DNA from: a virus
Virus record (IMG/VR): IMGVR_UViG_3300048919_000123
Coordinates: 19,665-83,664 of that record
Length of the DNA stretch: 64,000 nt
Reading direction: 5' to 3' (one strand)
Each line of letters starts with the position of its first letter. Position 1 is the stretch's first letter. The translations under genes were made by a program, and so were the position numbers. Of this stretch, positions 17,372-40,794 are shown piece by piece. The notes beneath the pieces were generated by a model. It had not been told where the DNA came from. It worked only from the letters and a program-made list of their open reading frames with translations, and did no database searches.

Positions 17372-17450
17372 TGGAAGAGGGTCAAGGATTCGAACCTTGG
17401 ATAGCCGGTGTCAAAGACCGGTGCCTTAAGCCAGACTTGGCGAACCCTCT
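17372..17450 (-). tRNA. tRNA-Gln (anticodon UUG)
   Basis: A complete cloverleaf on the minus strand: acceptor stem AGAGGGT/ACCCTCT, D arm, anticodon stem CCGGT/ACCGG with loop CTTTGAC giving anticodon TTG, and T arm CAAGG-TTCGAAT-CCTTG. The 3' CCA is encoded (TCCA). The tRNA reads CAA (and CAG by wobble). It stands between a 220-aa gene and a terminator. Confidence 0.95.
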
Positions 17451-17533: not shown

Positions 17534-18196
17534 TTACTTGCAGTCGTCAATATCTCGTTCGGCTTGCGAGCGCTCATCAATGACTGCCCCGGCCAGCACT
17601 TGTGCCTGGCTGCGCGAGTCGATCTCACCGTCAGTGATCTTCGCTTGGCTGATCGTGCAGTTCTGCCGGCCGTACTCGCTCAGCGAGCCGTCGGCATTGA
17701 AGGCCTTTCCTATTTCGAACTCGAAGGGCTTCACGATCACCTGGTGCGCCAGCGAGGATTCTTCCACCGGACGCTCGGACACCGACCCACTGAACGCCGA
17801 TCGCAGGATATGCAGCCCTCCAATGATCGAGTTCCGCGCCAGCCAGGCAGCGGACTGATCCACACCGTCGTACTTGTCGAGCATCTCGATATCGGTGTAC
17901 AGCGTCCGGAACTTTTCCTCGAGCTCGTCCACCCGCTGGCGGCGTACTTCGTGGAAGCGCGCACGGTCGCTCAGATCCGCTTCGCCGATCAGATGGTCTG
18001 GCAGCCGGCCCGACTCACGGAGTTCTTCACCCAGTGGCGTGTCGCGGATCGCCGTGGCGATCTCGTTCAGCCCGGTCTTCACATCTTCCAGGCTGATACC
18101 CACCTCAAACCCCGAGGCGTAGGTTTGCCCGCTTTCGCTGGTGCCGAGCACGATTCGGCCCACGATCTGGTCAGGTCGGTCATTGGATTGGCTCAT
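17534..18196 (-). CDS. Hypothetical protein, 220 aa
   Basis: Starts at ATG 18196 with AAGGAG upstream (MSQSNDRPDQIVGRIVLGTS). Mixed helical protein with an Arg-rich middle (LSDRARFHEVRRQRVDELEE) and an acidic C-terminus; no motif recognised. It overlaps the end of the small membrane protein gene by 17 bases, so it is co-translated with it and with acb2. Its stop (TAA) is fused to a copy of the border element (TCTCGCTAATCTCCGGG). Confidence 0.75.
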   Translation of the reverse strand: MSQSNDRPDQIVGRIVLGTSESGQTYASGFEVGISLEDVKTGLNEIATAIRDTPLGEELRESGRLPDHLIGEADLSDRARFHEVRRQRVDELEEKFRTLYTDIEMLDKYDGVDQSAAWLARNSIIGGLHILRSAFSGSVSERPVEESSLAHQVIVKPFEFEIGKAFNADGSLSEYGRQNCTISQAKITDGEIDSRSQAQVLAGAVIDERSQAERDIDDCK

Positions 18197-18350
18197 TGGT
18201 CTTCTCCTTTTTGCTCCCGCCACGCAGCCAGTAACCGGCAAAGAAGCACACGGTGAAGGCAATGAAGTGGGTGTAGTTGAGGGTCGGCAGCCAGGCCGCG
18301 ATGGCGTAGACCACGGCGATCAGGGTGTCTTGAACGGGTACGTCTTCCAT
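18180..18350 (-). CDS. Small two-helix membrane protein
   Basis: 56 aa, ATG at 18350 one base after the acb2 stop. It has two hydrophobic segments (about 8-26, TLIAVVYAIAAWLPTL, and about 30-45, HFIAFTVCFFAGYWL) and a positively charged tail RGGSKKEKTNEPIQ. A holin-like or membrane-defence role is possible. No endolysin is adjacent, so I do not call it a holin. Confidence 0.7.
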   Translation of the reverse strand: MEDVPVQDTLIAVVYAIAAWLPTLNYTHFIAFTVCFFAGYWLRGGSKKEKTNEPIQ

Positions 18351-18351
18351 G

Positions 18352-18585
18352 TCACTTCTCGAAGGGGTCAGCTGGGCGAGCAACCCCGCGGACGAACCAC
18401 ATGAACCCTTGTTGCAGCTGACTTCTGGCGATAGCCAGCGCACGTTGGTCTACGTTGGGGATTTCACTGATCTGCTTGAACAGCGCACCGGTGTCGGCTT
18501 CCAGAGCCTTGATCGAATTCATGCCGTCGATCTCACTCTGGGTCAGATCTCGGTAACCTGTGATCTTTTTATGCTGGTTGTCCAT
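18352..18585 (-). CDS. acb2: Acb2-like anti-CBASS cyclic nucleotide sponge
   Basis: 77 aa. The N-terminus MDNQHKKITGYRDLTQSEID and the C-terminal helix ALAIARSQLQQGFMWFVRGV with ARPADPF match the Acb2/Tad1 hairpin family (T4 Vs.4 relatives). Known members form hexamers that bind cyclic di- and trinucleotides, keeping CBASS effectors inactive. Two helices joined by a short turn account for the whole protein. It has its own promoter and begins a small operon (acb2, membrane protein, 220-aa protein), consistent with early expression. Family call from remembered consensus; ligand specificity cannot be read from the sequence. Confidence 0.88.
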   Translation of the reverse strand: MDNQHKKITGYRDLTQSEIDGMNSIKALEADTGALFKQISEIPNVDQRALAIARSQLQQGFMWFVRGVARPADPFEK

Positions 18586-18595
18586 GTTGAGATTC

Positions 18596-18611
18596 CTCGC
18601 TGATTGGCGAG
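18596..18611 (-). repeat. Palindromic border element ahead of acb2
   Basis: Minus strand CTCGCCAATCAGCGAG, a member of the dispersed CTCGC-N6-GCGAG family. It begins four bases after the -10 hexamer of the acb2 promoter and ends ten bases before the start codon, so it would form a hairpin at the very 5' end of the mRNA or act as an operator. Confidence 0.75.
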
Positions 18612-18614
18612 CGG

Positions 18615-18643
18615 AGGATAGTCCGAAAAGAAAAAGACCTCAA
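18615..18643 (-). promoter_or_regulatory. Probable sigma70 promoter of the acb2 operon
   Basis: Minus strand TTGAGG (18643-18638), 17-bp spacer, TATCCT (18620-18615). The -35 hexamer lies inside the stem of the upstream terminator. Four of six bases match in each box; spacing is ideal. Confidence 0.6.
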
Positions 18644-18665
18644 GGAGGACTAGGCCTTGAGGTCT
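18635..18665 (-). terminator. Intrinsic terminator after the 164-aa gene
   Basis: AGACCTCAAGG, nine-base loop, CCTTGAGGTCT, followed on the minus strand by TTTTCTTTT. Eleven perfect pairs plus a T-run make this a clear terminator for the leftward transcript of the gene at 18723-19217. Confidence 0.9.
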
Positions 18666-18722: not shown

Positions 18723-19217
18723 TTAGAGGTCAGCCTCGGTGATGTCAACGTAGTAGGCCTTTCCCTGCTCCAGGTGGGCGGCGATGTCGCTGCGCACGTT
18801 GTAGCTCAGGGAGCCATACGGGGTGTACTTGCCGAACACGCCGTCTTCCTCGGTCGGGTTGGGGCTGTACACGGCGCCGAAGGTGCACCGGGTCAACGGA
18901 TCGTCCGCGCTGCCCACGTTCGGGGTGAGACTGTGCAGGGTCATCTTCAGGCGGGTTGTGCGGCGTGGGGTGGCAGGTTCGATGTGAAGGCCCATGCCGC
19001 AGAGCGACTCGCCGACCTTGAAGGGCACGCTGTTCTCGTCGAAGCGTTTGGCGCAGTCACTGACGCTCCCGGTGTCGATGGTCGAGCGCTTCACGGCGTC
19101 ATGCTCTGCAAGTTGGCGAGCCAGGTTCTCAACGGCTGGCGGGGTGGTGATTGAGGCGACACTGGCGTCCAGAGCCTTGTGGGCTTCCTCGAGGTAGTTC
19201 TGGGTCTTGATGGTCAT
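18723..19217 (-). CDS. Hypothetical protein, first leftward gene
   Basis: 164 aa from ATG 19217 (MTIKTQNYLEEAHKALDASV), with AGGA upstream. Helical first half, beta-rich second half (GSLSYNVRSDIAAHLEQGKA) ending YYVDITEADL. No family recognised. It is the first gene leftward of the divergent control region and is isolated by a terminator, so it is probably expressed early and separately. Confidence 0.75.
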   Translation of the reverse strand: MTIKTQNYLEEAHKALDASVASITTPPAVENLARQLAEHDAVKRSTIDTGSVSDCAKRFDENSVPFKVGESLCGMGLHIEPATPRRTTRLKMTLHSLTPNVGSADDPLTRCTFGAVYSPNPTEEDGVFGKYTPYGSLSYNVRSDIAAHLEQGKAYYVDITEADL

Positions 19218-28180: not shown

Positions 28181-28471
28181 ATGGCCCACTACGCAGTCTA
28201 CTGGCAGAAGGGCAACGAAGGACGCCCGCTTGCCTCTCACTGGTACGAGCTGAATGGTGTGATTACCTACGCCAGTCCGGTACTGGAAGACTGGGTGGGC
28301 AAATCACACAAGGAGCTGGTCGGCGAGTTGTGGGAAGGCCGGGCCAGCCCATGGTGGGACGATAACTGCGTCCCGCCGACCATGAAGTACCACCTCCAAC
28401 TACTGCGGTGCGTGAACGCGCTGCTCATAGGACTTCCATATGACCCGCCAACCCGACGCCGTCACCCCTGA
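28181..28471 (+). CDS. Hypothetical protein, 96 aa
   Basis: ATG 28181 two bases after the previous stop (MAHYAVYWQKGNEGRPLASH). Trp-rich (ELWEGRASPWWDDNCVPP). The last ten codons overlap the start of the LytTR gene by 32 bases in another frame. Unknown function. Confidence 0.6.
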   Translation: MAHYAVYWQKGNEGRPLASHWYELNGVITYASPVLEDWVGKSHKELVGELWEGRASPWWDDNCVPPTMKYHLQLLRCVNALLIGLPYDPPTRRRHP

Positions 28472-28841
28472 GTACATCGAGGCTCGCCGCCTGGGCGTGC
28501 TGGTGCGCACGCCGATCGAGAACATCGCGTTCTTTCAGGCCGAGCACAAGGCGGTGGTGGCGCACACCAAAACCAACGGCTCGTTCGTCCTCGATGTACC
28601 TCTGTGCGAGATCGCCGAGACCTTGAAGGACAAGGCGACCACGGTGCACCGCGCGTATCTAGTGCCCAACGATGTTTTGCCCGGCCTGAAGAGCTGGCGA
28701 AAAGGCGAGCACTGGGTCTTCGAAATCATCACCAGCGTGCGCCGCGCGGACGGGATGGTCGGCTTGATTGACCACGTCATCCCGGTCGCGCGGCGCAGCA
28801 CCAACAAGGTCAGGAAGTTGCTGACCAAGGAGAAGTCATGA
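28440..28841 (+). CDS. Stand-alone LytTR-type DNA-binding protein
   Basis: 133 aa. Residues about 26-130 match the LytTR fold: NIAFFQAEHKAVVAHTK, LDVPLCEIAETLKDK, the hallmark TTVHRAYLVPNDVL (HRAYLV at 70-75) and the late IPVARRSTNKVRKLL. LytTR domains bind DNA in response regulators of the AlgR/AgrA type. No receiver domain is present, so it would act as a constitutive or competing regulator. It is the only clear transcription factor in this accessory block. Likely targets are unknown; host AlgR-type sites are one possibility. Confidence 0.75.
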   Translation: MTRQPDAVTPEYIEARRLGVLVRTPIENIAFFQAEHKAVVAHTKTNGSFVLDVPLCEIAETLKDKATTVHRAYLVPNDVLPGLKSWRKGEHWVFEIITSVRRADGMVGLIDHVIPVARRSTNKVRKLLTKEKS

Positions 28842-32440: not shown

Positions 32441-33352
32441 ATGAAACGAACGTTGCAGCATGCCGTTGTCCAGATGATTCTGTTCAGCACCCTGATCTTT
32501 TCAGCCCTCGCCCAAGCGGCGCCACCTGAAACCCTGAAGTTCTGCTCCGGTGGTGTCGGCGGCTTCTACGAAGGCCTGGCCACCAGCATTGGCGGAAAGA
32601 TCACCAACGAGATCGGCAACACGCTCAAGGTGATGACCACCGGCGGCAGCGTCGACAACGCCAAAAAGCTCAAGGCCGGTGACTGCGACATCGCGATCAT
32701 CCAGGCCGACGCCGTGATCACCCAACCGATGCCGGCTTCCTTCAAGGCGATCAACGCCCACGAAGAAGTCGTGTACTGGCTCTACCCAAAGGGCGGCGAG
32801 GTGAACGACTTTGGCGACATGGAAAACGACAGCGTGGCGAAGAAATACGCTTTCGCCACCGTCAAAGGCAGCGGCGCAGCCGTGACCCTGAACAACTGGA
32901 TCAAAACCGACAAGGACTACGCCGGCGCCGTGCCGGTCGAGTTCAAGGATTGGTACAGCGCGGCCGAAGCCGTGGCACAGGGGTTCACCATGGACAGCGG
33001 CGTTCGTGTCGACATCGCCGGCATGCTGTATATCGGTCGACTCGGCATGCTGCCGGCTGACATCACGTCCGACTTCGGCAACCAGATCATGGTCGGTGGC
33101 GTGGACGACAGCTCGTTCGAGAACGCCAAGGATGCCAACGGCAATCCGCTGTACACCCACTGCGCCATCGCCAAAGGCAAGACTTCCGGTCTGGAAGGCC
33201 CCGGCACGTTCAGCGACGTGAAAACCTACTGCCTCCGCGCTCAGGTGGTCTTCAACAATGCCTACCTGAACGGGCTGGATGAAGCAGAAACCACCGCGGT
33301 TCGCCGCGCCGTGGACAAGGGCATAAACAGCACGGTCAAGGTCGTGCGCTGA
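32441..33352 (+). CDS. TAXI/TRAP-type periplasmic solute-binding protein
   Basis: 303 aa with a signal peptide (MKRTLQHAVVQMILFSTLIF, likely cleavage after AQA at 26). The mature start LKFCSGGVGGFYEGLA, then KVMTTGGSVDNAKKLKAGDC and DIAIIQADAV, is the signature of the TAXI family of extracytoplasmic solute receptors, which normally feed TRAP transporters. A few Cys residues may form disulfides in the periplasm. No transporter subunits of normal TRAP type are nearby; a 54-aa membrane protein overlaps its stop. In a phage it may alter host uptake or act as an envelope-stage decoy or exclusion factor. Family call strong, role open. Confidence 0.88.
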   Translation: MKRTLQHAVVQMILFSTLIFSALAQAAPPETLKFCSGGVGGFYEGLATSIGGKITNEIGNTLKVMTTGGSVDNAKKLKAGDCDIAIIQADAVITQPMPASFKAINAHEEVVYWLYPKGGEVNDFGDMENDSVAKKYAFATVKGSGAAVTLNNWIKTDKDYAGAVPVEFKDWYSAAEAVAQGFTMDSGVRVDIAGMLYIGRLGMLPADITSDFGNQIMVGGVDDSSFENAKDANGNPLYTHCAIAKGKTSGLEGPGTFSDVKTYCLRAQVVFNNAYLNGLDEAETTAVRRAVDKGINSTVKVVR

Positions 33353-38643: not shown

Positions 38644-38682
38644 CCACGACAAGGACGCCCAGTGGCGTCTCAAGGATATACG

Positions 38683-40794
38683 ATGCGAGACATCAACAGT
38701 TACCCGATCCCCGTCGGGTATCGCTGGATCAATGGCAAAGTCGTCGACAACTTTGCAGGCGGCGGTGGAGCTTCCACCGGCATCGCCCAGGCCAATGGCC
38801 GCTCCCCCGACATCGCCGTGAATCACAACGCCGAAGCGCTGATGATGCACGAGCAGAACCACCCCGAGACCAAGCACTACAACGAGTCGGTCTGGGACAT
38901 CGATATCCTCGCAGCGTTGAATGGCCAGCCAGCCCTGATGGGCTGGTTCTCGCCGGACTGCACCCACTTTTCGGTCGCCAAGGGCGGCAAGCCGGTGAAG
39001 AAAGCCATTCGCGGCCTGGCCTGGATCGTGAAGAAGTGGATCGGCCAGTCGGACATGGCCATGCTCTTCATGGAGAACGTGAAGGAGTTCATGACCTGGG
39101 GCCCACTGATCGCCAAGCGCTGCAAGAGCACCGGCCGCGTGATCAAGCTGGTCGCCGACCCGGTGAAGAAGGACAAGGACGGCAACCCGGTGATGAACGA
39201 AGTCGTCAGCGAGCCTGGCGAACAGGTCGCTTACTGGGATCAGGCGCTGGTGCCGGACAAGAAGCGATCCGGCAGCATCTTCAAGCAGTTCATCAAGCAG
39301 CTGCGCGCCGCCGGCTACACCGTGGAGTGGAAGGAGAAGGGTCTCAACGCCTGCGACTACGGTGACCCGACTACCCGAAACCGCTTCTTCCTGATGGCCC
39401 GCAAGGATGGGCTGCCGATCATCTGGCCGGAGCCGACCCACGCTGACAAGAAGTACCTGCGTGCCAACCCGGGCAAGCTGCAGCCGTGGAAGACCGCAGG
39501 CGAGAACCTCGACTTCAGCCTGCCCTGCCCGTCGATCTTCGGCCGCAAGAAACCGCTGGCCGAGAAGACCCTGGCACGCATCTTCAAAGGCATCGAGAAG
39601 TTCGTGATCGGCGCCGGCGATGAGGCGTTTCTCGTGAAGACGAACCACGCCTACGACCAGTTCCGCGGCCAGTCGCTGGACGAACCGCTGCAGACCCTGA
39701 CCAGCAAGCTGGGCACCGGGCTGACGGCGGTCACGCTTAGCAAGTTCAACCAGAACAGCATCGGCCAGTCGGTGGACATGCCGATCGACACCGTCATGGC
39801 TGGCGCAACCCGCTTTGCCTTGGTGGAAGCCGAGCTGCAGTCAGCCGCCGCTATCATGAAGTTCCGCGGTGACTCCGGCGGCGCCAGCTGCAACATGCCA
39901 CTGCCGGTGATCACCGCCGGTGGCGGCGCGGCGCGGCCGGCAGGCGCACCCCATGCCCTCGGCGTTCTGCAGGCGCAGCTGGAGCCGTTGATGCAGGCAG
40001 GCTGCATCACCACCATCGACCACCAGAGCACCGGCGATACCTCGAAAGGTTACGACGAGCCACTGTCGGTCGTGACCAGTAAGGCCCGGCACATTCAAGT
40101 CGCCGCGCTGCTCAAGCATTACACCGGCGTGGTCGGCCAGCACCTGGACAAGCCGCTGCCAACGATCACATCCAAGGATCACAACTCGGTCATGGAAGCC
40201 ACGCTGGCAGCCGTTGACCCGGTGCACGATCTGGAAGATGCACTCGACGTAGCGCACATCCAGCGCGACTTCGGCAACAGCGTCGGCCACGGCGCCGATG
40301 AACCACTGGGCGCAATCACCGCAGGTGGCGGCGGCAAGTCGGCGCTGGTGGCCAGCAGCCTGGTGAAACTCAAAGGCACCTGCAACCACGGTCAGTCGCT
40401 CGACAGGCCACTGGATGCGATCGCTGCACAGGGCAACCACTTCGCAGCGGTTCAGGCCTTCCTGATCAAGTTCTACGGCACAGGCGGCGCGGTCAGCTGC
40501 GACGAGCCGCTGGACACCATCACCGCCAAGGCGCGCTTCGGCATCGTCACCATCCACGGGCAGGACTACCAGATTGTCGACATCGGCATGCGAATGCTGG
40601 AGCCGCACGAGCTGTATCGCTGCCAGGGTTTCCCGGCCGATTACGAGCATGAAGTGGTGATGGGCAAGAAACTGCCGAAGCATGCGCAGGTGCGCATGGT
40701 TGGCAACTCGGTGCCGCCGGGGCTGGCCCGGGCACTGGTAGCAGCAAACATCCCGCGCTGGGCGCTGGGCAATCAAATGCAGGAGAGTGCGTGA
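38683..40794 (+). CDS. DNA cytosine-C5 methyltransferase with internal repeats
   Basis: 703 aa from ATG 38683 with AAGGAT upstream (an upstream GTG lacks a ribosome site). Motif I VVDNFAGGGGASTGIAQ (about 20-36) binds AdoMet; the catalytic loop is GWFSPDCTHFSVAKGG (about 86-101), a Pro-Asp-Cys variant of the usual Pro-Cys; motif VI is FMENVKEF. Motifs IX-X are at the end (PHELYRCQGFPADYE, VRMVGNSVPPGLARAL). Between them (about 320-625) lie eight degenerate modules such as GQSLDEPLQTLTSK, HLDKPLPTITSK, ADEPLGAITAGG and CDEPLDTITAK. It probably shields phage DNA from host restriction; target sequence unknown. Confidence 0.9.
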   Translation: MRDINSYPIPVGYRWINGKVVDNFAGGGGASTGIAQANGRSPDIAVNHNAEALMMHEQNHPETKHYNESVWDIDILAALNGQPALMGWFSPDCTHFSVAKGGKPVKKAIRGLAWIVKKWIGQSDMAMLFMENVKEFMTWGPLIAKRCKSTGRVIKLVADPVKKDKDGNPVMNEVVSEPGEQVAYWDQALVPDKKRSGSIFKQFIKQLRAAGYTVEWKEKGLNACDYGDPTTRNRFFLMARKDGLPIIWPEPTHADKKYLRANPGKLQPWKTAGENLDFSLPCPSIFGRKKPLAEKTLARIFKGIEKFVIGAGDEAFLVKTNHAYDQFRGQSLDEPLQTLTSKLGTGLTAVTLSKFNQNSIGQSVDMPIDTVMAGATRFALVEAELQSAAAIMKFRGDSGGASCNMPLPVITAGGGAARPAGAPHALGVLQAQLEPLMQAGCITTIDHQSTGDTSKGYDEPLSVVTSKARHIQVAALLKHYTGVVGQHLDKPLPTITSKDHNSVMEATLAAVDPVHDLEDALDVAHIQRDFGNSVGHGADEPLGAITAGGGGKSALVASSLVKLKGTCNHGQSLDRPLDAIAAQGNHFAAVQAFLIKFYGTGGAVSCDEPLDTITAKARFGIVTIHGQDYQIVDIGMRMLEPHELYRCQGFPADYEHEVVMGKKLPKHAQVRMVGNSVPPGLARALVAANIPRWALGNQMQESA

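Follow-up and report, generated by a model that had tools for sequence, protein, structure and literature searches.

Acb2 is represented in the PDB by p26 of phages PaP2 and PaMx33 (8h2j, 8h2x, 8ixz) and by Vs.4 of phage T4 (7uq2), and the solved proteins have a short N-terminal helix and two long antiparallel helices. Acb2 assembles as a homo-hexamer, sequesters cyclic oligonucleotides without cleavage, and protects phages from CBASS. Tyr8 of the T4 protein is needed for dinucleotide binding (PMC12657218), and its mutation disrupts both dinucleotide binding and Panoptes activation (PMC12657218; PMC12657230). The hairpin domain defined in Pfam as Acb2_Tad1_hairpin (PF24729) is common to Acb2 and Thoeris anti-defence 1 (Tad1), but Tad1 has an added N-terminal antiparallel beta-sheet, which contributes to its ligand pockets (review PMC12043709). 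Short forms of Acb2 are encoded by the P. aeruginosa phages vB_Pae_U2, 5400, and vB_PaeS-D14B and by many IMG/VR contigs.

We analyzed a stretch of 64,000 nucleotides (the window) from an IMG/VR virus record of 83,664 bases, in which a preliminary description had assigned one small gene to an Acb2-type anti-CBASS protein fitting the hairpin consensus across its length:

18352..18585, minus strand: acb2, encoding a 77-aa short-loop Acb2, a predicted cyclic-oligonucleotide sponge

A minus-strand ORF with an ATG start and encoding 77 aa was confirmed at exactly this position. PF24729 was the only Pfam-A family matched by the protein (E 5.4e-18, 65.4 bits; curated cut-off, 27 bits). Residues 10-70 covered profile positions 1-58 of 58, indicating that the fit indeed extends over the full consensus. 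The gene was the only PF24729 match in the whole virus record. A phmmer search of the PDB with the 77-aa protein retrieved p26 (8h2j; E 1.2e-12) and T4 Vs.4 (E 0.0028), and a search with a 63-member profile detected the same two proteins with E values of 6.6e-30 and 9.6e-8, respectively.

The AlphaFold2 model of the 77-aa protein, calculated as a monomer, had a mean pLDDT of 86. It contained a short helix at residues 4-7 and long helices at 16-40 and 47-68, matching the pattern of solved Acb2. Each of the best eight Foldseek matches of the model, among them 8h2x, 8h2j, and 7uq2, was a structure of Acb2 or Vs.4 (probability 1.00, TM 0.60-0.72). Because PF24729 is shared with Tad1, the protein might instead be a Tad1-type sponge acting mainly on Thoeris signals; however, the N-terminal antiparallel beta-sheet of Tad1 is absent from the model, and Foldseek returned Acb2, not Tad1. 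We give this reading hardly any credence.

We then compared the protein with its homologues. It is 47% identical to PaP2/PaMx33 Acb2 in a 14-sequence alignment, and the N-terminal MDNQHKKI.GYRDL is nearly identical in the two; however, the PaP2/PaMx33 protein is 93 aa long with a longer hairpin tip. T4 Vs.4 has the same fold and shares G-Y, N, and K of the dinucleotide pocket, but is only 34% identical, has a long tip, and lacks an equivalent of R48 in the alignment. Its ligand-stacking Phe82 corresponds to A69 in the 77-aa protein, and PaMx33 also has alanine there. The short Acb2 proteins of vB_Pae_U2 and the other phages and contigs named above are about 79-83% identical and of the same length class. 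Hairpin-tip length is exactly that of the window protein in 127 of 187 homologues; judged from these sequences, the short loop is the common form and the long PaMx33 tip the minority form.

G10, Y11, N23, and K26 are invariant in the 14-sequence alignment, from PaMx33 to T4, and 97-98% conserved among the 187 homologues. The dinucleotide-pocket residues Y11, which lies opposite T4 Tyr8, and K26 are thus both present in the 77-aa protein, as are R48 and R66, which are 96-97% conserved among the same homologues. We take K26 and R67 of PaMx33 to be ligand contacts, with R67 presumably belonging to the trinucleotide site in the hexamer channel; R48 is the equivalent of this R67 and is kept in 96% of the 187 homologues. 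Neither of two contrary signs named in the preliminary description, a missing structural match to Acb2 and missing pocket residues, was found. Because sequence, predicted fold, and conserved pocket residues agree, the 77-aa protein is, with near certainty, an Acb2 that serves as a sponge for cyclic oligonucleotides; within this known family, it is a well-supported addition of the ordinary kind.

The sequence departs from the family at positions 54-56, where R-S-Q replaces K-T-D/N (K-T-D in PaP2/PaMx33). The window residues at these positions are shared by only 2-6% of the 187 homologues, and T55, found in 171 of them, is S55 here. In T4, T68M, a change of the pocket threonine that aligns with position 55, has been reported to reduce binding (PMC12657230). 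These features could point to an Acb2 whose ligand preference has shifted away from ordinary CBASS dinucleotides. However, the T-to-S change, which keeps the hydroxyl, and the K-to-R change are conservative, Y11, N23, K26, R48, and R66 are all kept, and dN is low. We therefore consider altered specificity unlikely and retain canonical Acb2 as the preferred reading.

Homologues of the protein were detected in 239 phage records by tblastn, and viral contigs contributed 310 stretches that code for relatives, the best of which are about 80% identical. Homologues at about this level of identity are present in many Pseudomonas phages and prophages, and the named phages among the closest relatives are Pseudomonas phages. 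Against the nearest homologues, dN was 0.12-0.17 and dS about 1.8-3.2 (near-saturated). Low dN against near-saturated dS shows, at the level of sequence comparison, purifying selection on acb2; the ORF is thus no chance reading frame but encodes a protein kept by selection. The closest acb2 DNA was only 70-76% identical, and consequently no recent donor was identified.

The gene lies in a block of small genes and leader elements, all on the minus strand:

18723..19217, minus strand: 164-aa upstream gene, phrog_6978-like (PHROG E 3e-27), syntenic in relatives; left boundary of the putative insertion slot
18638..18662, minus strand: terminator-like stem CCTCAAGG/CCTTGAGG with a T-rich tail, from strand folding, between the 164-aa gene and acb2
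18615..18643, minus strand: sigma70-like promoter TTGAGG-17-TATCCT, from a comparative pattern
18596..18611, minus strand: leader hairpin CTCGCCAATCAGCGAG, followed by a GAGGA ribosome-binding site, conserved in relatives
18180..18350, minus strand: 56-aa small membrane protein (hydropathy), a gene of the lineage and not an Acb2 partner
17534..18196, minus strand: 220-aa protein, of a family remotely related to the Acb2/Tad1 hairpin by sequence; hairpin at about residues 75-136
17372..17450, minus strand: tRNA-Gln (TTG), from ARAGORN; right boundary of the small-gene block

The terminase gene region of the window is 76-81% identical at the DNA level to the Pseudomonas phages Lana, PMBT3, and UAntarctica. 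Gene order in the window is 164-aa gene, acb2, 56-aa membrane protein, 220-aa protein, tRNA-Gln, HU/IHF-like gene, 212-aa gene, and terminase. The same order without acb2 was found in at least seven related lineages (Lana, the L094-L096 group, L097, L099, L100, L102, and PMBT3). No membrane gene was found at the locus in L100, and for the two genes in position in PMBT3 no similarity to the membrane protein or the 220-aa protein could be detected. The tRNA-Gln is also present in PMBT3 and UAntarctica. A PF24729 search of the full records of Lana, PMBT3, and UAntarctica yielded no match; its controls were silent, and the same search detects the window copy.

The gene had also been described as lying in its own operon with two neighbors. 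This arrangement is supported by the terminator-like stem, promoter-like element, hairpin, and ribosome-binding site upstream and by the two genes downstream. The stem at 18662-18638 has a folding energy of -12.1 kcal/mol (z -1.63), and an element of a similar kind is visible in the leaders of relatives. A strict sigma70 scan found no promoter. A comparative pattern, TTGnnn-17-TAYnnT, chosen after the sequences had been seen, precedes this position with small variations in the window and its relatives, with like spacing and -10 type at the same place in seven syntenic relatives. The leader hairpin CTCGCCnnnnAGCGAG likewise precedes the same position in the window and relatives. It is kept in six of the seven relatives (the exact hairpin is missing from PMBT3), and the gene that follows it there encodes a membrane protein or a protein of the 220-aa type rather than Acb2. 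The hairpin occurs as a single copy in the window, and no repeat of the leader motif was found elsewhere in it. Across Lana-type phages, the whole set of terminator-like stem, promoter-like element, and hairpin (18596-18662, minus strand) is kept ahead of a variable first gene.

Alignment with L094, which has an empty site, showed that the leader is unbroken up to the start codon, with the ATG of acb2 at the position of the ATG of the L094 membrane gene. Most likely, acb2 is a cargo gene inserted behind a resident terminator, promoter, and leader hairpin. Because the promoter-like element and hairpin precede the same position in relatives, acb2 most likely uses the resident promoter. Absence from the relatives could in principle reflect repeated loss, but a single gain, as deduced from the comparison, would, by parsimony, be preferred to seven or more losses. 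An ancestral acb2, lost repeatedly in relatives and leaving its neighbors as persisting functional partners, would fit the tight packing, in which only one base separates the stop of acb2 from the ATG of the membrane gene, and the promoter shared with these neighbors. However, acb2 is missing from all seven syntenic lineages found, and neither a membrane gene nor a 220-aa gene of this kind lies near any of 90 other acb2 loci. We regard ancestral presence as very improbable and favor insertion of acb2 as cargo.

The same survey bears on the proposal that the small membrane protein and the 220-aa protein are candidate partners of Acb2. Homologues of the 56-aa protein are present in Lana, L094-L097, and L102, all without acb2, and both neighbors co-occur at the same place in relatives lacking acb2. 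The inspected short Acb2 genes of vB_Pae_U2 and similar phages and contigs lie in lysis or packaging neighborhoods without these two genes. Neither neighbor was found in the 90 other acb2 loci either; the two are therefore not partners of Acb2 in general, and the proposal is not supported. For the membrane protein, partnership was ruled out by its synteny without acb2 and its absence near other acb2 genes.

We also examined the 220-aa protein. PF24729 did not match the window copy; its homologue in L094 scored one bit below the cut-off of 27 (E 9.7e-6, 26.1 bits). Profile-profile comparison (hhalign) of the 220-aa family with the 63-member Acb2 alignment gave P 6.7e-7, and comparisons with a reduced set gave P 2.9e-6 and 9.4e-8. 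When the Acb2 profile was run on 9,643 ORFs, the 243 true Acb2s were followed next by members of the 220-aa family, in the order L100, Lana, L094, L101 (a partial contig at the same locus), L102, and L097. The family scored up to 20 bits, compared with 8-9 bits for the best of 9,000 shuffles, and the window copy reached only 4.7 bits. The matched region corresponds to Acb2 columns 24-69 only. The family lacks the pocket residues G10-Y11 and K26, with a residue other than lysine opposite K26, and the window copy has S where most of its relatives, like Acb2 at R48, have arginine. These alignments relate the 220-aa family remotely to the Acb2/Tad1 hairpin; this relationship is new here and is the only part of this analysis that goes beyond the known.

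In the AlphaFold2 model of the 220-aa protein, only the helical hairpin at residues 75-136 was confident (pLDDT about 80). Elsewhere the model is poor, and with it Foldseek retrieved neither Acb2 nor Tad1 and nothing significant. A profile of the family, searched against the PDB, found no meaningful match either. Searches with the 220-aa protein itself found nothing in viral contigs and only Lana among phages, and a search with a conserved relative recovered its own contig only. Members of the family are encoded at L094:4003-4563, L087:2171-2599, L100:2546-3085, and L102:3964-4497. Their flanking segments are very variable and contain 'ATIxDGxI'-like repeats. Of all members, the copy in the window has diverged furthest.

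The idea that the 220-aa protein is a further anti-defence gene thus gains some support from the remote hairpin kinship of its family, but the Acb2 dinucleotide pocket is absent. The family may be another sponge or simply a module for oligomerisation. A bolder reading, in which it is an undescribed, highly variable Acb2/Tad1-hairpin sponge of Lana-type phages with extra segments and another pocket, and in which the window copy is an older sponge now decaying because the acb2 inserted into its operon has superseded it, appears rather doubtful.

Beyond this locus, Pfam searches with 20 plus-strand ORFs of the window revealed no other anti-defence family. A 710-aa ORF (38662-40794, plus strand) matches the C-5 cytosine DNA methylase family PF00145 in three stretches (E 1.7e-23), and a 133-aa ORF (28440-28841, plus strand) matches the LytTR DNA-binding domain PF04397 (E 3.1e-8), which seems unusual for a phage. 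The match of a 303-aa ORF (32441-33352, plus strand) to NMT1-like PF16868 is borderline, at the cut-off.

Taken together, these findings very probably describe a canonical short-loop Acb2 that holds CBASS cyclic nucleotides and whose gene is a cargo insertion behind a pre-existing promoter. The 77-aa protein would form a multimer of helical hairpins, presumably a hexamer, that binds and holds the cyclic di- and perhaps trinucleotides of CBASS; the CBASS effector would then stay inactive, and the infected cell would not be killed. In this Pseudomonas phage lineage, acb2 would have become the first gene of a small operon whose promoter and leader were already in place. The Acb2 of the window adds one sequence to a well-studied family. 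If the 220-aa hairpin relative is shown to bind, the locus would be worth searching for additional sponges. An anti-CBASS gene that neatly follows the leader and promoter already present in a phage operon, with homologous empty sites at hand, helps to read how phages collect anti-defence genes.
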